A stretch of 64,000 bases of DNA from Gluconobacter sp. Dm-62 (GTDB lineage: Bacteria; Pseudomonadota; Alphaproteobacteria; Acetobacterales; Acetobacteraceae): NCBI RefSeq assembly GCF_018256155.1, contig NZ_JAERLY010000001.1, forward strand, positions 62,001 to 126,000, read 5' to 3'. The position numbers were made by a program, and so were the translations under genes. Positions within the stretch are counted from its first letter, which is position 1. Every line of letters begins with the position of its first letter. This document shows, one piece after another, positions 1 through 13,941 of the stretch. The notes beneath the pieces were generated by a model. That model was given only the letters and a program-made list of their open reading frames with translations, did not search any database and was not told where the DNA came from.

Positions 1-1
1 C

Positions 2-715
2 CGGACCGACCTGCGGGCCTTTCTTGAGGTTCATATCGAACAAGGCATTGTTCTGGAACAGGACGGCCTGCCGATCGGAGCCGTCACGGCCATCGCCGGC
101 GTCACGCGTATCGAAATTCTTTTTGGCGGCCGCGCGGACCATGCGGGCACGACACCGATGGACCGCCGGCAGGATGCCGCCGTGGCAGCAGCGTCTGTCA
201 TCACATTCGTCAGCCGGCGGGCGGGTGAACTGGCGCAGTCCGGTCAGGGACATGTGACAGCCACGTGCGGGATCGTCGAGATCTCGCCCAATGCTTCCAA
301 TGTTGTGCCGCGTTCGGCGCGGATCGTGGTCGATATCCGGGTTTCGGAACGTGCCGTGGTCGAGGGCTTTGCGGAAGAACTGGAAGCCGCCTGTCGCTCG
401 GCCGCCTCAGAGGCTCATGTGCGGCTGGAGCGTTTCATGCGCCTGTCGGACACAAAGCCGGTTGCCTGTGATGCAGGTCTGGTCCGGAGGATCGGGCAGG
501 CCGCCGGGCAGCTTGGACTGAAATACCGTCTGATGGTGTCCGGAGCAGGCCATGACGCTGCTTTCGTGGCCCGGCTGTGTCCATCAGCGATGCTCTTCGT
601 GCCGTGCCGGGACGGGCGCAGTCATGACCCGGAGGAATGGTGCACGCCGCAGGATGCCGCGAATGGCGCGCGCGTCCTGACGCAGGCGCTTCAGGATATC
701 GATCGCGATTTTTGA
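2..715 (+). CDS. M20-family N-carbamoyl-amino-acid amidohydrolase, 3' part
   Basis: The gene enters from the left edge; about 237 C-terminal codons are present. It reads as a zinc-dependent M20 amidase of the N-carbamoyl-L-amino-acid hydrolase / allantoate amidohydrolase type. Visible signatures are HIEQG near the edge, DHAGTTPM in the dimerisation and substrate-binding region, a GAGHDA motif, and the closing SHDPEEW, which matches the family's usual SH-P-E-W. The family releases ammonia and CO2 from N-carbamoyl amino acids. A DUF917 protein starts 56 bases downstream, followed by a urocanase-like protein. In that context the natural substrate is plausibly N-carbamoyl-L-glutamate, the last intermediate before glutamate in hydantoin-propionate degradation. 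The substrate is inference; the family is secure. Allantoate or ureidoglycine chemistry cannot be excluded because the N-terminal metal ligands lie outside the window. Confidence 0.88.
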   Translation, partial: RTDLRAFLEVHIEQGIVLEQDGLPIGAVTAIAGVTRIEILFGGRADHAGTTPMDRRQDAAVAAASVITFVSRRAGELAQSGQGHVTATCGIVEISPNASNVVPRSARIVVDIRVSERAVVEGFAEELEAACRSAASEAHVRLERFMRLSDTKPVACDAGLVRRIGQAAGQLGLKYRLMVSGAGHDAAFVARLCPSAMLFVPCRDGRSHDPEEWCTPQDAANGARVLTQALQDIDRDF

Positions 716-771
716 ATGACGCGCTCTCCCGGGAATGCCGGTGAGACGCAGGACGACAAGGATGACGCAGG

Positions 772-1884
772 ATGGGTAGAATTCTGGTTGCAAAAGACGT
801 GGAGGCCGCAATCCTTGGCGGATCGGTCTTCGCCTGTGGTGGTGGTGGCTGGGTCGAGCACGGCCGGATGTTGGGCACGGCAGCGGTCAATACCGGACAG
901 CCGGAACTTGTCTGTGCGGAAGAGATTGAAGACGATGCCATTATTGCCACGGCAGCGGCGATCGGTGCGCCTGCAAGTACAACGGAATGGCAGATGCTGG
1001 GTGTCGACTACGTCAACGCCGTAAAGCTCGTCCAGAAAGAACTGGGACAACCGATTTATGGTCTTATGATCGGGCAGAACGGCAAGTCCAGCACGCTCAA
1101 CGCCTGGCTGCCCGGCGCGATTCTGGGCACGAAAGTCGTCGATGCGGTCGGAGATATGCGGGCCCATCCTACCGGTGACATGGGCTCCATCGGCATGGCC
1201 AACTCCCCCGAGACGATGATTCAGGCGGTCGTTGGCGGCAACCGCTCCCGCAATGCCTATATCGAGATGGTCGCAAAAGGGGCGACCGCGCGGATTTCGC
1301 CCATCCTGCGGACCGCGTCCGATATGTCAGGCGGCTTTATCGCATCCTGCCGCAACCCGCTTCCCGCATCTTACGTCAAGCGCCATGCCGCGTGGGGGGG
1401 CATCTCCCGCGCGCTCGCACTGGGAGAAGCCATTCTCGAAGCATCCGGCAAAAGCGGAAGTGCCGTGATCGATGCCATTGTAAAAACGCTCGACGGAACC
1501 ATTCTCGCGCAGGGCAAGGTCAGTCGCAAATCGGTCACATACACGTCCGAAGCGTTCGATGTCGGGACCATCACGGTCGGACAGGGCGCATCTGCCGTCA
1601 CGCTGCATGTCATGAACGAATACATGGCCGTTGATGATGCGCACGGTCAGCGTCTGGCGTCCTTCCCCGACATCATCACGACACTCACGCCGGACGGTTA
1701 CCCCCTGAGCGTCGGGGAGATCGAGGACGGCATGGAAATCCTTGTCCTGCACGTGGAAAAATCAAAGTTCCCCCTCTCGTCGAGTGTCGTGGATCCCAGC
1801 GTTTACCCGCCCGTCGAACGCGCTCTGGGCATCGATCTTGCAAGCTATGCGCTCGCTCCCTCCCCCACTGGCAAGGACTCCTGA
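772..1884 (+). CDS. DUF917 family protein, probable S-methyl thiohydantoin desulfurase
   Basis: This 370-residue cytoplasmic protein has the full length of the DUF917 family. Recognisable parts are the N-terminal GGSVFACGGGG glycine-rich segment, AHPTGDMGSIGM in the middle, and a C-terminal beta-rich half ending in a VDPSVYPP-like stretch. From memory, DUF917 has been linked to hydantoin metabolism, and characterised members are S-methyl thiohydantoin desulfurases that turn a 2-methylthio-hydantoin into the hydantoin with loss of methanethiol. Its place between a carbamoylase and a urocanase homologue fits that role exactly, because the urocanase-type enzyme would make its substrate. An AAGGA box lies 11 bases before the ATG. 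The next gene starts 3 bases after the stop, so the two are almost certainly co-transcribed. Family is secure; reaction is inferred from context. Confidence 0.8.
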   Translation: MGRILVAKDVEAAILGGSVFACGGGGWVEHGRMLGTAAVNTGQPELVCAEEIEDDAIIATAAAIGAPASTTEWQMLGVDYVNAVKLVQKELGQPIYGLMIGQNGKSSTLNAWLPGAILGTKVVDAVGDMRAHPTGDMGSIGMANSPETMIQAVVGGNRSRNAYIEMVAKGATARISPILRTASDMSGGFIASCRNPLPASYVKRHAAWGGISRALALGEAILEASGKSGSAVIDAIVKTLDGTILAQGKVSRKSVTYTSEAFDVGTITVGQGASAVTLHVMNEYMAVDDAHGQRLASFPDIITTLTPDGYPLSVGEIEDGMEILVLHVEKSKFPLSSSVVDPSVYPPVERALGIDLASYALAPSPTGKDS

Positions 1885-1887
1885 GAC

Positions 1888-3531
1888 ATGACCAACCGAA
1901 CTTTCGACGTCACGTCCGGCAACACGCTGCGCTGTCGGGGATGGCGACAGGAAGGGCTGCTCCGGCTTCTGGAAAACGTGCTGTCCGTCGGGGAAGATCC
2001 CGACAACCTTGTGGTCTACGCCGCTCTGGGAAAAGCCGCCCGCGACTGGCCGTCCCATGACATGATCGTGCAGAGGCTGAAAACCATGCGTGACGACGAG
2101 ACGCTCATCGTCCAGTCCGGAAAGCCGATCGGCGTGGTCCGCACGCATGAGCGCGCGCCCATCGTGGTCATGGCCAACTGCAACATGATCGGGCAATGGG
2201 CCAAGGCGGACGAGTTCTACAGGCTGGAGAAGAAAGGCCTGATCTGCTGGGGCGGCCTGACGGCTGGCGACTGGCAATATATCGGCTCTCAGGGTGTCAT
2301 TCAGGGAACCTATGAGATCTTCCGTTGCATCGCCGAGCGCCATTTCAGTTCGAACCTGTCCGGCAAGCTGATCCTGACATCCGGTCTGGGCGGCATGGGC
2401 GGCGCGCAGCCTCTCGCCGGACGTCTGGCCGGTGCCGTGATCCTTTGTGTGGAAATGGACAGCACGCGCATCAACAAGCGTATGGAAGCCGGTTATCTGC
2501 AGCATCGGGCAGAAACACTCGATGAAGCCCTGACACTGGTTGCTGAGGCCCAGCGCAAGGGCGACGGCTGTTCGATCGGCCTGCTTGGCAATTCAGCCGA
2601 CATCCTTCCCGAGATCCATGCCCGCGGGATCGTTCCCGACATCGTCACGGACCAGACATCCGCGCATGATCTGGTTTACGGTTATATTCCTGCCGGACTG
2701 TCCATCGCAGACGTTCAGACCCTGCGGGAAAAAGACCCCGAACAACTCGCCGGGCTCTCGCTGACATCCATTGCCCGCCATGTTCAGGCCATGCTGGATT
2801 TCCAGTCAGCCGGATCGATCGTCTTCGACAACGGCAACCTGATCCGCACGCAGGCCAAAAAGGCGGGGATCGAGAATGCTTTCGATATTCCGATCTTTAC
2901 GGAAGCCTATCTACGCCCGCTTTTTGCCCGCGCGATTGGACCGTTCCGCTGGATTGCGCTGTCGAACGATGAGGACGACATCCGCAAAATCGACGATTAT
3001 CTGCTGGAAACATTCGCGGATAATCCGTCCGTTGTGAACTGGATCACACTGGCCCGGGTGCATGTCCCGTTTGAAGGACTTCCCGCTCGTATTGCCTGGC
3101 TGGGTCATGACGCCCGAACGCAGGTTGGCCTCGCCGTTAACAGGATGGTTCGTGAGGGCGTTCTGGCAGGGCCTGTCGCCTTCACACGCGATCATCTGGA
3201 CGCCGGTGCCATGGCCCATCCGAACATCATGACGGAAAACATGAAAGACGGTTCGGACGCCATCGCAGACTGGCCATTGCTGAATGCGATGCTGGCGTGT
3301 TCTTCCCAGGCCGATCTGGTTGCCATCCATTCCGGAGGGGGCGGCTATGCCGGCTACATGACCAGCGCAGGCATCACGATCGTTGCCGACGGGTCCAGCG
3401 AGGCAGATGAACGGCTACGGATCGCCCTGACGAACGATACCAGTCTGGGCGTCATGCGCTATGCCGATGCCGGCTATAAAGACGCGCATCATGAAGCGGA
3501 AGAGCGCGGCATCCGCTGGCTTTCCCTGTAG
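1888..3531 (+). CDS. Urocanase-family hydratase, probable S-methyl thiourocanate hydratase
   Basis: The 547-residue protein is collinear with urocanate hydratase (HutU, about 556 residues). It has the ARDW...LKTM...DETLIVQSGKP N-terminal block, the IGSQGVIQGTYE block, the GLGGMGGAQPL NAD-binding motif, and the C-terminal KDGSDAIADWP and ADGSSEADERL blocks. It departs from HutU at signature positions. The HutU motif DHLDCGS (Cys410 in the Pseudomonas putida enzyme) reads DHLDAGA here, and the HHGGGVGMG loop reads HSGGGGYAG. NAD-binding parts are kept while substrate-facing parts are changed, which suggests a different imidazole acrylate. No hutH, hutI or hutG lies next to it. Together with the DUF917 and carbamoylase genes, I infer hydration of S-methyl thiourocanate or thiourocanate. 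Plain urocanate hydratase remains the fallback annotation. Confidence 0.75.
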   Translation: MTNRTFDVTSGNTLRCRGWRQEGLLRLLENVLSVGEDPDNLVVYAALGKAARDWPSHDMIVQRLKTMRDDETLIVQSGKPIGVVRTHERAPIVVMANCNMIGQWAKADEFYRLEKKGLICWGGLTAGDWQYIGSQGVIQGTYEIFRCIAERHFSSNLSGKLILTSGLGGMGGAQPLAGRLAGAVILCVEMDSTRINKRMEAGYLQHRAETLDEALTLVAEAQRKGDGCSIGLLGNSADILPEIHARGIVPDIVTDQTSAHDLVYGYIPAGLSIADVQTLREKDPEQLAGLSLTSIARHVQAMLDFQSAGSIVFDNGNLIRTQAKKAGIENAFDIPIFTEAYLRPLFARAIGPFRWIALSNDEDDIRKIDDYLLETFADNPSVVNWITLARVHVPFEGLPARIAWLGHDARTQVGLAVNRMVREGVLAGPVAFTRDHLDAGAMAHPNIMTENMKDGSDAIADWPLLNAMLACSSQADLVAIHSGGGGYAGYMTSAGITIVADGSSEADERLRIALTNDTSLGVMRYADAGYKDAHHEAEERGIRWLSL

Positions 3532-3557
3532 CCAGACGCCAAGCGTCCTGTCGGCTC

Positions 3558-3602
3558 ACTTTACTGGTCTTCTGAACAGGACCCGCCAGTGAAGTGGCTT
3601 TT
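3558..3602. terminator. Stem-loop between the urocanase-like gene and metF
   Basis: A 10-base stem (ACTTTACTGG pairing with CCAGTGAAGT, one G-U wobble) closes a loop of about 18 bases and is followed on the plus strand by GGCTTTTC. It sits between two convergent genes and touches the metF stop codon. It probably ends the plus-strand operon and may act in both directions. The T run is short. Confidence 0.5.
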
Positions 3603-4483
3603 CAGTTCGCATCTTCCAGCCCGAGAAGCCGACACAGGGCAATCCCCGGTTCAGCCCGGTTCAGCGTATAGATGTGAAAACTCTCGACCCCATGTTGTTG
3701 CAATGCGCGGCACATCATGGCGGCCAGCGCAGTCGTGATCTGTGCACAGATTTCCGGCTGTTCCTCCAGGTCACTCACCTGCCTCAGCAGCCAGTCCGGA
3801 ATATGCGCTCCACACATTCCGGCAAATTTCCGCGCCTGCGACACATTACCGATCGGCAGAATGCCCGGAACAATCTCTGCGGTAATTCCTGCCGCGATGG
3901 CGGCGTCCCGAAAACGGAGAAATGCTTCGGGGGTAAAGAAAAACTGCGAAATGGCGCGCGTGGCCCCTGCATCCAGCTTGCGGCGCAGGTTATCCAGATC
4001 CGCCTGCGCGCCCTGCGCCTCCGGATGAACTTCCGGATAGGCCGCAACCGAAATCTCGAATGGCGCCACGTCCCGCAGTCCCCGCACAAGCTCCGCAGCC
4101 GAGCGATAGCCATCCGGATGGGCTACAAAACCCGCTTTCATATCCGGCGCATCACCCCGAAGTGCCACAATATGCCGCACTCCTGCCTCCCAGTAGGCGC
4201 GCGCCACATCATCAACCTCCTGACGGGACGCCCCTACACAGGTGAGGTGTCCTGCGACCGGAACGCCTGTTTTCTGCCCCAGACGCTCGGCCGTGCGGAT
4301 GCTCCTGTCGCGCGTGGAGCCCCCTGCCCCATAGGTGACGGACATGAACCCGGGCCCATAAGCGGCAAGACGGCGGCCCGTGCTCTCCAGCGCCGCCTCC
4401 GAAGCCGGTGTTTTGGGCGGGAAAAACTCGAATGAAACCCTGGGCTTGCGCAACGGCGCCAGCATTGAAAGATCAACGGACAT
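3602..4483 (-). CDS. metF: 5,10-methylenetetrahydrofolate reductase
   Basis: This 293-residue TIM-barrel flavoprotein reduces 5,10-methylene-THF to 5-methyl-THF, the methyl donor used by the neighbouring MetE. Visible MetF signatures are VSFEFFPPK at the N-terminus (catalytic Glu region), SVTYGAGGSTRDR, GHLTCVG, ALRGDAP (FAD binding), ISQFFF and VPGILPI. The length matches the family. The open frame continues upstream into the end of metE, but the start with GAGGA five bases before ATG (reading MSVDLSM) is preferred because conserved sequence begins there. It lies 91 bases downstream of metE on the same strand and is probably co-transcribed, so the cobalamin riboswitch ahead of metE may control both. 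Confidence 0.95.
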   Translation of the reverse strand: MSVDLSMLAPLRKPRVSFEFFPPKTPASEAALESTGRRLAAYGPGFMSVTYGAGGSTRDRSIRTAERLGQKTGVPVAGHLTCVGASRQEVDDVARAYWEAGVRHIVALRGDAPDMKAGFVAHPDGYRSAAELVRGLRDVAPFEISVAAYPEVHPEAQGAQADLDNLRRKLDAGATRAISQFFFTPEAFLRFRDAAIAAGITAEIVPGILPIGNVSQARKFAGMCGAHIPDWLLRQVSDLEEQPEICAQITTALAAMMCRALQQHGVESFHIYTLNRAEPGIALCRLLGLEDAN

Positions 4484-4574: not shown

Positions 4575-6872
4575 TCAGGAATCCACTGCGGTCCGCAAAA
4601 GACGCGCCGCAGCCACCATGTTCGCAATCGCAGGCTCGACTTCAGGCCATCTGCGGGTCTTGAGGCCGCAATCCGGATTAACCCAGATCTGCCGGTCTTC
4701 CAGACGTACCCGTGCCGCACGCAGCAGTTCGGCCATTTCCCCGACAGTCGGAATGCGGGGGGAATGAATGTCATAAACCCCCGGACCGATTTCAGCGGGA
4801 TAGGCATCCTGCACAAAGGCGTCGAGCAGCTCCATCTTCGACCGCGCGGTCTCGATGGAAATGACATCCGCATCCATCGCCGCAATGGCGACAATGATGT
4901 CGTTGAATTCCGAGTAACACATATGGGTATGGATCTGCGTGCGATCCGCGACCCCTGATGCCGTCAGACGGAAGCTTTCCACGGCCCAGTCCAGATAGGA
5001 CTTCCAGTCCCTGCGCCGCAGCGGGAGCCCCTCCCGCAAGGCCGCTTCATCAATCTGGATCATTGCGGCACCAGCCACTTCCAGGTCCAGAACTTCGTCA
5101 CGTATGGCAAGCGCAATCTGGCGGCATGTCGTTGCACGCGGCTGGTCATCACGAACAAACGACCAGTTGAGGATCGTGACCGGCCCCGTCAGCATCCCTT
5201 TCACAGGACGCTCCGTCAGGGACTGGGTATAGCGCCACCACTCAACCGTCATGGAGTGCGGACGCGATACATCGCCGAAAATGATCGGCGGCCGGACGTA
5301 CCGTGATCCATATGACTGTACCCATGCGTGCTTCGTAAACACGAAACCAGAGAGCTGCTCGCCGAAATACTGCACCATGTCATTGCGCTCGAACTCGCCA
5401 TGCACCAGCACATCCAGCCCGACCTCTTCCTGCCAGCGCACAGCCTTGCAGGTTTCTTCCCGCAAAAATGCCGTATACTGATCGTCTGAAAGAACGCCCT
5501 TCGCATGGGCAGCACGCGCAACGCGGATATCCGGCGTCTGGGGAAACGATCCGATGGTGGTCGTCGGAAACAGGGGCAGACCCAGCCGGGCCTGTTGCTC
5601 TTCACGACGGGTGGAAAACGCCGCATTGCGGCGGCTGAGTTCCGGCGTGACGGTCATAAGACGCGTCTGAACCGCCAGATCATGAATCCGCGGCGAACTA
5701 CGCCGCAGACTGGCGGCACGGTCCGAAGCCTCCAGAACATCCCGCACGGCATCCCGCCCCTGCTCCAGTGCCGTCGCCAACGTGCGCAGTTCCCCGATCT
5801 TCTGCACGGCAAACGCCAGCCACTGGCCGATTTCCGGGTCCAGATCAGTCTCACGCGCGAGATCGATCGGCACATGCAGCAATGAACATGACGGCGCGAG
5901 CACAAGATTGCCGCGCGCCCTGAAAGCAGGCTCAAGCCCGTCCAGCAGCTGGCTGAGATCAGCCCGCCAGACATTGCGGCCATCGACAACACCCAACGAC
6001 AGCAGAAGATCCGGCCGCGCCTTGCCCAGCACCTCTGCCAGCTGTTCCGGCGCCCGGATCAGATCCAGATGCAGCCCATGAACCGGCAACGAAAGCGCAG
6101 TTTCGAGATTATCGTCCAACGCCCCGAAATACGGCGTCAGCATGATCTTCAGAGCCGGAGCAGCCTCCGTCAGAGCTGCATAGGCCGCCTGAAACGCCTC
6201 CCGCGCCATATCATCCAGGTCAAGCACCAGCCCCGGTTCATCGAATTGAACCCAGTCCGCCCCTTCTGCGACCAGCTGCTTCAGGACCTGCTCGTAAACA
6301 GGCAGGACACGCTGCAGAAGTCCGAGCGGATTGATGTTCTGCTCATCACGGATTTTAGCCAGAAGCAGATAGGTCACAGGGCCCAGCAGTACCGGCCGCG
6401 TCTGGATATCCTGCGCTTTTGCCTCCCGATATTCGTCCACAACCTTTGATGTAGACAGCTCGAATATCTGATCCGCCCTCAGATCTGGAACGAGATAATG
6501 GTAGTTCGTATCGAACCACTTCGTCATTTCTCCGGCAGTTACGCCGTGTGCACAATCCTTCTGCCCCCCGCGGGCCATTGCGAAATAGGTGAGCGGATCG
6601 ACAGTCCTGCCTTTCCAGCCATAGGCCTCGGGGACGGCGCCAAGCATGGCCGAAATGTCCAGAACATGGTCATAGAGCGAAAAATCGTTCGACGGCACGA
6701 TATCCGCGCCATGCTCCTTCTGGCAGGCCCAGTTGATCTTGCGCAGATCTGAGGCGGTGCACAAAAGCGCATCAAGATCCGAACGACCCGACCAGTAGCT
6801 TTCCAGTGCGGTCTTGAGTTCACGACGCAAACCGATGCGCGGAAATCCGAGTGAGGCGACACTGACGCCCAT
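4575..6872 (-). CDS. metE: Cobalamin-independent methionine synthase
   Basis: The 765-residue enzyme transfers the methyl group from 5-methyltetrahydropteroyltri-glutamate to homocysteine without vitamin B12. Both barrels are present: the N-terminal FPRIGLRRELK start and the C-terminal PTTTIGSFPQT motif. Zinc ligands are visible at His650 and Cys652 (HTHMCYSEF), Glu674 (SIETARS) and Cys735 (NPDCGLKTR), matching E. coli His641, Cys643, Glu665 and Cys726 with a constant offset of nine. GGGAG lies 10 bases before the ATG, next to a small UUCG-capped hairpin in the leader. A cobalamin riboswitch sits in the same leader, implying MetE is shut off when B12 is available. That usually means a B12-dependent MetH is encoded elsewhere. 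Confidence 0.97.
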   Translation of the reverse strand: MGVSVASLGFPRIGLRRELKTALESYWSGRSDLDALLCTASDLRKINWACQKEHGADIVPSNDFSLYDHVLDISAMLGAVPEAYGWKGRTVDPLTYFAMARGGQKDCAHGVTAGEMTKWFDTNYHYLVPDLRADQIFELSTSKVVDEYREAKAQDIQTRPVLLGPVTYLLLAKIRDEQNINPLGLLQRVLPVYEQVLKQLVAEGADWVQFDEPGLVLDLDDMAREAFQAAYAALTEAAPALKIMLTPYFGALDDNLETALSLPVHGLHLDLIRAPEQLAEVLGKARPDLLLSLGVVDGRNVWRADLSQLLDGLEPAFRARGNLVLAPSCSLLHVPIDLARETDLDPEIGQWLAFAVQKIGELRTLATALEQGRDAVRDVLEASDRAASLRRSSPRIHDLAVQTRLMTVTPELSRRNAAFSTRREEQQARLGLPLFPTTTIGSFPQTPDIRVARAAHAKGVLSDDQYTAFLREETCKAVRWQEEVGLDVLVHGEFERNDMVQYFGEQLSGFVFTKHAWVQSYGSRYVRPPIIFGDVSRPHSMTVEWWRYTQSLTERPVKGMLTGPVTILNWSFVRDDQPRATTCRQIALAIRDEVLDLEVAGAAMIQIDEAALREGLPLRRRDWKSYLDWAVESFRLTASGVADRTQIHTHMCYSEFNDIIVAIAAMDADVISIETARSKMELLDAFVQDAYPAEIGPGVYDIHSPRIPTVGEMAELLRAARVRLEDRQIWVNPDCGLKTRRWPEVEPAIANMVAAARLLRTAVDS

Positions 6873-10709: not shown

Positions 10710-11498
10710 TTACTGAGCGGCGAGAACAGGTGGAGCGAAACGACGGTTTTCCAGCACTGGAAGAACATGACGCGCATGAGCAATCCGCTCGCGGTCCAGC
10801 GTGGCGAAGCCCAGAGCCGGCGCTTCCCCCAGTGCCAGCGTCACGACACCCAGCGGATCGACAACCATGCTGAATCCGGTATTCCGCGTCCCACACTCCC
10901 CGACAGCCACGACGTAGCACGTGTTTTCCAACGCCCGCGCCACCGACATGATTTCCCAGTGACGTTCCTTGCCCGGCCCCCGCACCCATGCGGCTGGCAA
11001 CAGCAGAACCTCCGCACCCGCAAGCGCCAGATGACGCGCGAGTTCAGGGAAACGCACATCATAACAGGTCATCAGACCAATCTTCATGTCTCCGATCTGC
11101 ACTACGGGCGGCAGTTCCAGACCGGGAGACGTCCGCTGGGATTCTTTCATGCTGAAAGCGTCATAGAGATGCAGCTTGCGATACGTCGCAATAAAGGCTC
11201 CATCACGCAGTACAAACTGCGTGTTGTAAAACCGACCCTGGCCATCAGGAACGTTCACACACCCTGCGACGGCGATACCCTGACTGGCCGCGCGCAGACC
11301 TTCCATGAACGGACCATCAAGCGGCTGTGCCGTCTGGGGCAGAAGTTCCGGATTGTTGATGTCCTGCGCCAGGATCCCTTCCGGCAGGACCAGAAGTTCA
11401 GCCCCGCCCGCCCGCGCCTGCGCTATCAGATCGAGACACTGCCGCTGGTTGGTTTCCCAGTCCGGCGCGACTGCAAACTGTCCAAGAGCAACCTTCAT
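10710..11498 (-). CDS. Carbon-nitrogen hydrolase (nitrilase superfamily, Nit1/Nit2-like)
   Basis: A 262-residue amidase with the Glu-Lys-Cys triad of the nitrilase superfamily: Glu40 (LVLPEG), Lys108 (YRKLHLYD) and Cys145 (MTCYDVRFPE). The YRKLHLYDAF and TCYDVRFPELAR motifs are typical of the deaminated-glutathione amidase / omega-amidase branch, which repairs deaminated glutathione or cleaves alpha-ketoglutaramate. Length is usual for the family and there is no signal peptide, so it acts in the cytoplasm. The ATG at 11498 is chosen over the GTG one codon earlier because of the GGGA box 8 bases before it. It has no co-directional neighbour and is probably transcribed alone. Confidence 0.88.
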   Translation of the reverse strand: MKVALGQFAVAPDWETNQRQCLDLIAQARAGGAELLVLPEGILAQDINNPELLPQTAQPLDGPFMEGLRAASQGIAVAGCVNVPDGQGRFYNTQFVLRDGAFIATYRKLHLYDAFSMKESQRTSPGLELPPVVQIGDMKIGLMTCYDVRFPELARHLALAGAEVLLLPAAWVRGPGKERHWEIMSVARALENTCYVVAVGECGTRNTGFSMVVDPLGVVTLALGEAPALGFATLDRERIAHARHVLPVLENRRFAPPVLAAQ

Positions 11499-11501
11499 CA
11501 C

Positions 11502-11988
11502 TGCATCCCATTTTCAAAAAAGCTGTTCATGCGTCGATATCTGTCGCGCCAGCATGCCTGACCTGCACGACGGGGTGAAGACAAAAGGCTTTGATACTTT
11601 TTCTTACAGGAACAGATCACCTTGCTGAAAATCAGAAGAAAAGATGAATTTGAAGATAATCCGAAGTCGACTTACCGGACGGAGGAACAGATTTAAAGTC
11701 TGCAGGATGGTGTCAGACACACACCTGAACAATACAGAAAGTTATTCAGTAACGTAGTTTGCTTATTTTTCCTTTCTACCCCTTTGGGAGCCCATACCCG
11801 CATTCGTCCCTTTTAAAATAACTTCACAATTCCGTTACCGGCCCTGCAAAACCGTCAGGAATATTTCCTCCTTCCCCGCCTACCTCCGCAGGCCGTAGAG
11901 CTGCAACGCGCACCTGAAAATATTTTTAGGAGCTATCGCACACGAGTTCATGCACATGTTCAGGACATCTTTTGACATGGGGGATTAA
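11502..11988. other. 487-base intergenic region between divergent genes
   Basis: AT-richer than its surroundings and without a credible open frame. It must hold the promoters of the amidase (minus) and the porin (plus). I see an imperfect inverted repeat CTGAA...TTCAG at 11725-11749 and a near-palindrome AGGAATATTTCCT near 11858, but no recognisable riboswitch or regulator box. Confidence 0.6.
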
Positions 11989-13941
11989 TTGACTCTGTTG
12001 ACCTTCCGCACGCTGCGGTCCCTGCGGGTATCGGGACGCGGATATCTGTTTCTCGGAACGACCCTGGGCGTCTTTCTTATTGGAACATCGGCCCGGGCCG
12101 ATGATGATCTCGTTTCGAGGATGGAACAGGAAATGAGCCGTCTGCAGGCGGCACAGGCTCATGTGCAGGAAGAACAGCGCGCCATCAATCATGATATGGC
12201 CGTGCTGAAAGAGGAAATTGCCAAACACCACGCTTCAGGCACTTCTCCGTCCCGCTCCAGTTCGCCTCATGCTGAACAGATTGCCGCTCAGCCAGACCAT
12301 TACGGGCGTGTTACAACTGCATCCGTCCGCCGCCGTGGTAACAAAACGCCACAGCCATTTGAGCCTTCGGGTTCTGGTCATGAAATGACGGCCGCATCAG
12401 GGCAGGAGCCAGTCCGTGGCGCTCAGGCCCGTCGTGACAGGATGTCGCTCTCACCGACGGGACGAGGACTTGTCGACAACGACAAGGGATCAGAGCTCGA
12501 CGTCGTCGGCCACCGCGCCGAGGATGTTGTCGTTCGTTTTGCTGAAAACGGTGTCGGCCCTCATCCGCGTGAAACGCTGGGCGCACAGGCCGCAGGTGCC
12601 GTCGGCGATCACGGCGTTTTCCATCTCGGCCCCGTAACGCTCATGCTCGGCGGCTTCGTCGATACGGCTGCCGTGCTTGAAAACCGGCATGTGGCGTCTG
12701 ACACGTTCAATTACTGGCAGGACATGCCGTATCCGAACCAGCCGCGTTACCACACCAACAATTTCGACGGAGGCGCACGCTACAGCCGCCTGTCCCTGCT
12801 GGCACGCGGCAATATCGACTCTGAATCCACGATCTCCGGCTTCTTTGAATCCGATTTCGGCGCTGGTGCCGTTACGACAGACCCGTATGAGAGCAACAGC
12901 TATTCCTTTCGCATGCGTCAGGCCTATCTTGCCTATGACGACAACAAGGAAGGCTGGCATTTCCTGGGAGGGCAGGCCTGGAGCCTCCTGACACCGGGCC
13001 GTGCGGGTATCGTTGCCCGTCAGGAAAGCCTTCCGGAAACGATTGAAGCCTCCATGCTCGCGGGCCAGACCTGGTCGCGCCAATGGCAGGTCCGTATCGT
13101 GAAGGACTTCTTCCATCATCGTCTGTGGACCGGTCTCTCGATCGAAAACCCTGCCACGCTGTATGATACGACCGGATTTTCCGCAGCCAACGGTGCGGTG
13201 TCGATACCCAACGGTTCCACCGTCACGATCGGTGAGAACGGCGTTGGCCTGACCAATGACACGACCAATTTCTCCAATGAGATCGCCCCGGATGTCATTG
13301 GCAAGGTCGCCTACGATCCCATCTGGGGTCATTATGAAATGGAAGGCATCCTGCACTTCCCCCATGACCGCGTGACGATGGGCAATACCGGGCATAACAA
13401 CACCGCCATCGGCGGCGGCACGGGCGGATCAATGATCCTGCCGCTCATTCCCGGCAAGCTCGAACTGCGCATGGCCGGGCTCGCGGGCTGGGGCATTAAC
13501 CGTTACGGCTCCGTCCTGCTGCCCGATGCCACGCTCAAGGCCAATGGCAGCCCCGATCCGCTCTTTGGCGTGCAGGCACAGGCGGGTGTCATCGCGCATC
13601 CTAACCCGCGCATCGACGTCTACGGCTATTTCGGCACGCAGCGCGTCGGCCATTCCTATTTCAACGACAATGGCGCCTCTTACGGCTACGGCAATCCCGG
13701 ATATTCCAACGCGGGCTGCCTGCAGGAGCTGTCTTCCCTGTCCTGCACGGCCAACACCCGCAGCGTGTCCGAAATCACGATCGGCGGCTGGTGGCGCTTC
13801 TTCAAGGGCAAGTTCGGCACTGTGGAAGCAGGCACGCAGCTCGCCTATTCGCGCAGGCAGATCTGGTCCGGCATCGGCGGCGATCCGCATACCAGCATGA
13901 GTCAGATCTTCTTCGACTTCCGCTACCTGCCCTTCCAATGA
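11989..13941 (+). CDS. DcaP-like outer-membrane porin with N-terminal coiled coil
   Basis: 650 residues beginning at TTG, supported by a GGGGGA ribosome-binding site six bases upstream; the nearby ATG runs into a stop. A signal peptide with a GVFLIGTSARA end precedes a heptad-like coiled coil (about residues 43-85), then a low-complexity linker, then a 16-strand-type barrel. The barrel shows GGFVDTAAVLE, YSRLSLLARG, FESDFGAG, MRQAYLAYD and WSLLTPG. This layout and these motifs match DcaP-family trimeric porins, which carry small acids and other solutes. The C-terminus ends in an aromatic-rich FRYLPFQ. The TTG start and strong ribosome-binding site suggest moderate constitutive expression. The substrate is not predictable. 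Confidence 0.82.
   Translation: MTLLTFRTLRSLRVSGRGYLFLGTTLGVFLIGTSARADDDLVSRMEQEMSRLQAAQAHVQEEQRAINHDMAVLKEEIAKHHASGTSPSRSSSPHAEQIAAQPDHYGRVTTASVRRRGNKTPQPFEPSGSGHEMTAASGQEPVRGAQARRDRMSLSPTGRGLVDNDKGSELDVVGHRAEDVVVRFAENGVGPHPRETLGAQAAGAVGDHGVFHLGPVTLMLGGFVDTAAVLENRHVASDTFNYWQDMPYPNQPRYHTNNFDGGARYSRLSLLARGNIDSESTISGFFESDFGAGAVTTDPYESNSYSFRMRQAYLAYDDNKEGWHFLGGQAWSLLTPGRAGIVARQESLPETIEASMLAGQTWSRQWQVRIVKDFFHHRLWTGLSIENPATLYDTTGFSAANGAVSIPNGSTVTIGENGVGLTNDTTNFSNEIAPDVIGKVAYDPIWGHYEMEGILHFPHDRVTMGNTGHNNTAIGGGTGGSMILPLIPGKLELRMAGLAGWGINRYGSVLLPDATLKANGSPDPLFGVQAQAGVIAHPNPRIDVYGYFGTQRVGHSYFNDNGASYGYGNPGYSNAGCLQELSSLSCTANTRSVSEITIGGWWRFFKGKFGTVEAGTQLAYSRRQIWSGIGGDPHTSMSQIFFDFRYLPFQ

Follow-up and report, generated by a model that had tools for sequence, protein, structure and literature searches.

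A nine-gene operon for the putative use of ergothioneine in Gluconobacter and other acetic acid bacteria

Introduction

Ergothioneine is made by fungi and by some bacteria, and is a prized antioxidant. A five-step bacterial catabolism of this compound was reportedly laid out by Beliaeva, Leisinger and Seebeck in 2021 (ACS Chem Biol 16:397). Here we analyse a stretch of 64,000 nucleotides from Gluconobacter sp. Dm-62 (contig NZ_JAERLY010000001.1, positions 62,001 to 126,000, in our numbering G000:C11:62001-126000; hereafter the window), at whose left edge lie three genes that are very probably the last three of a nine-gene operon for the use of ergothioneine, the reactions, the direction of transport and the regulation being those that the protein sequences lead us to expect. 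We take the enzymes of the 2021 pathway to belong to the same families as ErtA to ErtE of this operon, as follows from the names of the NCBIfam models.

The operon shares with the five-step catabolism, and with the NCBIfam Ert models, a cluster of five enzyme families, four of them over curated cut-offs here, but differs in a TonB-dependent receptor and an ACS-type transporter of the major facilitator superfamily (MFS), neither of which is found in the 67 other ert loci that we compared. The known pathway for S-methyl ergothioneine and S-methyl thiourocanate (models NF058531 and NF058532) uses a homologous hydratase and desulfurase, yet the Gluconobacter proteins miss both of its curated cut-offs. 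An ATP-binding cassette (ABC) importer specific for ergothioneine has been described (PMC9732360); it resembles the present system in its proposed uptake role, but its architecture is unrelated, and our Pfam scan found no ABC transporter among the nine operon genes. The enzymes are those of the known five-step pathway, and what is new, as far as could be found, is the acetic-acid-bacterial layout with its outer-membrane receptor: the open-licence literature, judged by titles and the beginnings of abstracts, yielded no description of an ert operon with a receptor from these bacteria.

Gene content and layout of the operon

The preliminary description of the window had recognised an M20 carbamoylase, a DUF917 protein and a urocanase homologue separated by 56 and 3 bases, and both the open reading frames (ORFs) and Pfam agree with this run. 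The three ORFs, all on the plus strand, measure 237 residues (2-715, open at the left edge), 370 residues (772-1884) and 547 residues (1888-3531), and match, all over cut-off, Peptidase_M20, S-Me-THD_N/C (formerly DUF917) and the N-terminal, Rossmann and C-terminal domains of urocanase. The contig DNA to the left was read from the stretch L002 (C11:46001-66000), such that a window coordinate equals the L002 coordinate minus 16000 and window 1-4000 is identical in every letter to L002:16001-20000. There the carbamoylase is complete with 417 residues, and its start codon (L002:15462) precedes the window edge by 538 bases. A hydantoinase, an upstream lyase and transporters had been expected left of position 1, and such genes are indeed present, the lyase at L002:12600-14120. 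Together they form a series of nine same-strand genes, in this order:

L002:6314-7561, plus strand: LysR regulator with two helix-turn-helix (HTH) domains in tandem, by Pfam
L002:7558-8856, plus strand: MFS1, ACS-type transporter; nearest model TIGR00893, under cut-off
L002:8853-11246, plus strand: TonB-dependent receptor, plug and barrel; PF07715 and PF00593 over cut-off
L002:11233-12603, plus strand: MFS2, ProP-like transporter; nearest model TIGR00883 (metabolite/H+ symporters), then ProP-like models, all under cut-off
L002:12600-14120, plus strand: ErtA, putative lyase of the aromatic-lyase family; by homology, a missing active-site triad and context
L002:14113-15465, plus strand: ErtD, predicted hydantoinase (hydantoin-5-propionate amidohydrolase); NF058538, 743 bits, cut-off 600
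Window 2-715 (whole gene L002:15462-16715), plus strand: ErtE, predicted N-carbamoyl-L-glutamate amidohydrolase (M20); NF058540, 563.8 bits, cut-off 520
Window 772-1884, plus strand: ErtC, predicted thiohydantoin desulfurase (ex-DUF917, S-Me-THD family); NF058529, 605.1 bits, cut-off 440; PF06032 and PF20906
Window 1888-3531, plus strand: ErtB, predicted thiourocanate hydratase (urocanase homologue), the last gene of the operon; NF058530, 994.4 bits, cut-off 930

The junctions along the nine genes measure -4, -4, -14, -4, -8, -4, 56 and 3 bases, lengths that depend on the start codons we chose, and such tight spacing is expected of a single transcript. ErtD was scored from an upstream in-frame TTG, the match to the model beginning at residue 130, and ErtE as the whole protein taken from L002.

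A predicted route from ergothioneine to glutamate

The enzymes were assigned with the NCBIfam equivalog models for the ergothioneine pathway (June 2026) at their curated cut-offs, and four of them, ErtB, ErtC, ErtD and ErtE, score above these cut-offs. The fifth, ErtA, comes nearest to ergothionase by sequence, by profile and by predicted fold, and would accordingly be expected to release trimethylamine. Its best match in the PDB is the ergothionase of Treponema denticola (6s7j, 1.1e-48; next match 4.8e-39), and with a profile built from the lyases of 18 ert loci, 6s7j scores 476 bits versus 335 for the best histidine ammonia-lyase (HAL). The structure was predicted for the 94% identical lyase of another Gluconobacter (locus L040) rather than for that of the window strain (mean predicted local distance difference test score, pLDDT, 86.8); this model again finds 6s7j first, with Z 42.5 and a root-mean-square deviation of 2.0 over 487 aligned residues (next row Z 40.3), and in Foldseek with 9.4e-30 versus 7.7e-25 for the best other protein. 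The Ala-Ser-Gly triad that forms the methylidene-imidazolone (MIO) cofactor is replaced in ErtA by Cys-Ala-Asp (GSIGCAD). The lyase rows compared across ert loci number 62, of which 46 read GS[IM]GCAD and 15 GSxG[EQ][AG]D, and a single one, from locus L090, reads the canonical ASGD, for which reason we do not regard the L090 lyase as an ergothionase. Ergothionase is an enzyme without MIO, according to a 2026 study (PMC13405746).

These assignments suggest the following route. Ergothioneine would be taken up at the inner membrane by the ProP-like MFS2, and possibly through the TonB-dependent receptor at the outer membrane. ErtA, as an ergothionase without MIO cofactor, would cleave it into trimethylamine and thiourocanate, and ErtB would add water to the latter to give a thiohydantoin-type propionate. 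ErtC would then put oxygen in the place of sulfur, which would set sulfide free and leave hydantoin-5-propionate, whose ring ErtD would open to N-carbamoyl-glutamate, and ErtE would finally yield glutamate, CO2 and ammonia. The LysR protein with its two N-terminal HTH domains probably regulates the operon. The gene set predicted for the conversion of ergothioneine to glutamate is complete, each catalytic step being assigned by homology, and the ergothioneine-derived breakdown to glutamate put forward in the preliminary description was right in outline, though not in its S-methyl chemistry. No EgtD-family match (PF10017) was found in the Gluconobacter genome, so that synthesis of ergothioneine through EgtD is improbable in this organism.

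Several observations weigh against this picture. No NCBIfam ergothionase model came up for the lyase, so that its assignment as ErtA draws on homology, on the absence of the MIO triad and on gene context. The protein is 29-32% identical to the lyases of the Burkholderia/Pseudomonas type, and in the lyase tree the acetic-acid-bacterial sequences stand with the rhizobial ones, apart from the Burkholderia type, in a part of the tree where the program warns of meeting long branches. ErtB also passes the general hutU model TIGR01228 (702 bits, cut-off 375), as does the thiourocanate hydratase of locus L058. Finally, an over-cut-off ErtB is present in only three of 249 sampled Acetobacteraceae genomes. 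ErtC is found in four of 26 Gluconobacter genomes, and ert is an accessory trait in the Acetobacteraceae.

Distribution and conservation of ert loci

When 84,980 species genomes were scanned with ErtC by means of two peptide patterns, 451 stretches came up, and a desulfurase relative is encoded in 419 of them. Locus counts refer to the best 80 of these 419, the ranking being by resemblance to the query from acetic acid bacteria; contig ends cut several of the 80. Thirteen of the 80 come from acetic acid bacteria (three Gluconobacter, one of them a metagenome-assembled genome, four Acetobacter, five Gluconacetobacter and one Komagataeibacter), a recurrence that argues against chance. Together with L002, L036 and L037, all 16 acetic-acid-bacterial loci have the same nine-gene arrangement, unchanged in order and on a single strand, the LysR match being partial in 13 loci where the fetched DNA ends. 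Locus L037 (genome G174) repeats L047 (Ga. asukensis), down to an identical receptor; with the two treated as one, the number of distinct genomes is 15.

Outside this group, searches of the other 67 loci (tblastn, 1e-10) found ErtA-like genes in 46 (including the canonical L090), ErtD in 61, ErtE in 65, ErtC in 67 and ErtB in 66, all five enzymes in 44, MFS2-like genes in 20 and LysR-like genes in 13. Neither MFS1 nor the receptor was found in any of the 67 at this threshold, and four different TonB receptors used as queries at 1e-5 also found none there. The rhizobial loci, such as that of Rhizobium sp. BK313 (L072), share the order ErtA-ErtD-ErtE-ErtC-ErtB on one strand and the lyase group, with lyases about 33-38% identical to Gluconobacter ErtA, but no TonB receptor, MFS1 or MFS2 was found in L072. 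Those of Burkholderiales and Pseudomonas, such as L066 of Paraburkholderia fungorum, have the five enzymes and a ProP-like MFS transporter (43% identical to MFS2), yet differ by ErtD and ErtE on the opposite strand, by the other lyase group and by genes of the sulfide-oxidation type.

A lyase homologue lies in range in 59 of the best 80 loci and lacks the MIO triad in 58 of them. PMC13405746 calls ergothionase restricted to a limited set of genera on the basis of BLAST with one Burkholderia sequence, and itself cautions that divergent homologues may be missed; with 58 such loci, the capacity looks wider than stated there.

Among 72,556 plasmid records searched with ErtC at 1e-60, 10 matched, and no acetic acid bacterium was among their sources. 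In the draft genome of G. albidus NBRC 3250 (L042), the receptor gene (2083-4464) has an internal stop and the hydratase match (about 11117-12600) covers 493 of 547 residues, which reflects either decay of the operon or errors of the draft.

Transport and regulation

Among the three transport genes, MFS2 alone has relatives in the other ert loci (20 of 67, at 40-47% identity), from which we infer that ergothioneine crosses the inner membrane through MFS2. For the receptor and MFS1 there are two readings. They may be a separate uptake pair for another nutrient that was fixed beside the ert genes in an ancestor, ergothioneine entering through porins and MFS2 alone, an explanation to which we give a little less than an even chance. 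Receptor relatives of 85, 82, 76 and 76% identity occur in four of the 249 Acetobacteraceae genomes (G042, G048, G215 and G247) that have no over-cut-off ErtB, which speaks against a dedicated receptor, and these interleave with the ert receptors in the tree; a strict co-occurrence of receptor and ert thus fails. More distant relatives, at 70, 68, 57 and 53%, occur in four further genomes. Among the ORFs scanned of eight loci with receptor relatives, a PhnD-like binding protein (PF12974) stands beside a 68-85% identical receptor in L120, L124 and L125, and in six of the eight the 20 kb fetched also contain an MFS1 relative. Against a separate pair, the receptor is present in all 13 acetic-acid-bacterial ert loci and in none of the other 67, is about as conserved as ErtB (76-96% identity, versus 79-97%), and its gene overlaps both neighbours in the window strain. 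The histidine-utilisation (hut) locus of the same genome, described below, likewise has a TonB receptor and an MFS transporter by HutU, so that such pairs may serve amino-acid-derived nutrients.

We advance only tentatively, as a possibility somewhat below even, that acetic acid bacteria import ergothioneine, be it free, as a metal complex or as a conjugate shed by yeasts or moulds, through a dedicated TonB receptor of the outer membrane that works with inner-membrane permeases of its own. The receptor would serve either ergothioneine uptake in both settings, with and without ert enzymes, or the uptake of another nutrient. An AlphaFold model of the receptor, made on an alignment of ten rows, is too low in confidence to show the barrel (mean pLDDT 26.6), and a sequence search of the PDB found no solved structure at E <= 0.001.

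Two HTH_1 stretches are also present in the LysR proteins of L036, L037, L073, L056 (12838-14637) and L058 (5311-7164), while that of L118 has one HTH only at threshold and that of L066 has one. The tandem-HTH LysR seems to be a frequent regulator of ert genes in several lineages.

Other substrates and the separate hut locus

That the operon serves ergothioneine itself has to be weighed against substrates of similar build. The natural substrate could be another thio-imidazole betaine (such as oxidised ergothioneine, for example the sulfonate, or a metal complex or conjugate of ergothioneine) feeding into an unchanged downstream route, and this we consider improbable. A catabolic pathway for the sulfonate is cited for Agrobacterium radiobacter in PMC13405746 (its reference 43), the acetic-acid-bacterial lyase clusters with the rhizobial lyases and not with the Burkholderia type, and one would not expect a compound as small as ergothioneine to have a TonB receptor. 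Yet ErtB and ErtC pass models named for thione compounds, and the rhizobial lyase group likewise shares its locus with ErtD, ErtE, ErtC and ErtB.

The S-methyl thiourocanate pathway, in which hydration is followed by the release of methanethiol, was the substrate branch favoured in the preliminary description, and is very improbable. The hydratase and the desulfurase share superfamilies with the S-methyl enzymes and do match their models, but below cut-off (743 bits on NF058531, cut-off 880; 282.1 bits on NF058532, cut-off 450), whereas both pass the models for the non-methylated compounds; with both curated cut-offs missed, we rejected this pathway. The desulfurases of L036, L037, L058 and L066 show the same pattern. 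As far as family models can, these results settle the question in favour of the non-methylated route, and the sulfur should leave as sulfide and not, as had been supposed, as methanethiol.

In three Burkholderiaceae loci (L066:15712-17951, also L084 and L085), genes for proteins resembling sulfide:quinone reductase and sulfur dioxygenase follow ErtA, the two proteins of L066 scoring under their NCBIfam cut-offs; such genes fit sulfide as a product.

The weakest alternative, an ordinary second locus for histidine or urocanate utilisation, could appeal to the urocanase and HAL-like folds and to the hutU model passed by ErtB, but we rejected it as extremely unlikely given a lyase with 189 bits on the hutH model TIGR01225 (cut-off 539) and no Ala-Ser-Gly, an ErtB without the motifs of the genome's own HutU, a desulfurase within the operon, no match to HutI, HutF or HutG among the nine genes, and hut genes elsewhere in the genome. 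The best PDB match of ErtB is 7ned (811 bits), followed by a urocanase chain (603); 8q9u/8q9v match at 585 bits, a distance from 7ned that also counts against the S-methyl pathway. We take 7ned to be a thiourocanate hydratase and 8q9u/8q9v an S-methyl thiourocanate hydratase, although the PDB listing calls all three urocanate hydratase. All 82 ErtB rows from ert loci contain HDL[VIL]YGY and HPNIMTE, where the genome's own HutU reads HDPLNGY and SPNRETE, and 81 of the 82 contain HSGGGGY[AS]GYMTS (the exception, L077, is cut short).

A complete hut operon next to the ert genes, which the preliminary description had named as the finding that would speak against it, is absent there; the hut genes lie on another contig, C50 (L039), which encodes HutI (C50:100134-101264, 428 bits, cut-off 298), HutF, HutG, the HutC repressor, a HutH-like lyase and HutU (967 bits). 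A second urocanase is thus not needed, and the urocanase-like gene of the window is probably not the organism's urocanase. The C50 lyase (L039:6227-7717) reads GSVGYLTHMAH where the canonical L090 lyase reads GSVGASGDLAPLAH, and with 437 bits it stays under the hutH cut-off of 539 although it lies amid HutI, HutF, HutG, HutC and HutU. On the same contig, hutU stands between an MFS gene and a gene for a TonB receptor (L039:7727-13132), the 401-residue ORF between the lyase and HutU being the MFS transporter; in this organism a second pathway for an amino-acid-derived compound thus comes with transport genes of this kind.

Neighbouring genes and variant loci

On the minus strand next to the ert operon, the domains of MetF and MetE are confirmed (metE at window 4575-6872). 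The idea that this pair links the released sulfur to methionine found no support and was set aside: metF (1e-30) was found in none of the 15 flanks read of other acetic-acid-bacterial ert loci, where the DNA beyond the hydratase spans about 0.8 to 8.4 kb (the shortest flank is that of L037, and its repeat L047 extends further), and metE (E <= 1e-100) is not significantly associated with ert in 26 Gluconobacter genomes (one of four with ert versus three of 22 without, p = 0.51). The adjacency looks incidental, and since only four of the 26 genomes have metE, one of them with ert, this flank looks like variable DNA.

We had also considered that ert loci without ErtA in range lack the enzyme altogether. 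This was partly wrong, since in several such genomes a lyase that scores like ErtA lies outside the locus. Genes for a class III CoA-transferase and for two acyl-CoA dehydrogenases occur in five of the 21 ErtC loci without an in-range ergothionase, some of which are cut by contig ends, versus none of the 59 with a lyase homologue: L058 (1732-5279), L070, L062, L099 and L112. The genomes of L058, L099 and L112 have no ErtA-scoring lyase (best 189-288 bits), and those of L062 and L070 have one elsewhere (558 and 495 bits). The CoA genes could provide an entry route in which a saturated thio-imidazole-propionate is converted through its CoA ester to thiourocanate. A UbiD-family decarboxylase (at least 44% identity) is present in six of the same 21 loci, L052 (12670-14124), L054, L095, L068, L099 and L112, versus one of the 59, namely L090 with its canonical MIO lyase; L053 has a UbiD-family decarboxylase at 32% identity.

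Biological implications

In vinegar, in kombucha and on fruit, acetic acid bacteria live together with fungi that make ergothioneine. Aspergillus oryzae is named as an ergothioneine maker in the context of rice vinegar (PMC11219324). In such foods the operon could decide whether ergothioneine survives, and could be a source of trimethylamine and sulfide off-flavours. If the receptor is dedicated to ergothioneine, it would allow these bacteria to scavenge a fungal antioxidant by energised uptake, and those relatives that keep the receptor without the ert enzymes would import ergothioneine for protection and not as food. With this receptor, the idea that TonB can drive the uptake of a small betaine becomes open to test.

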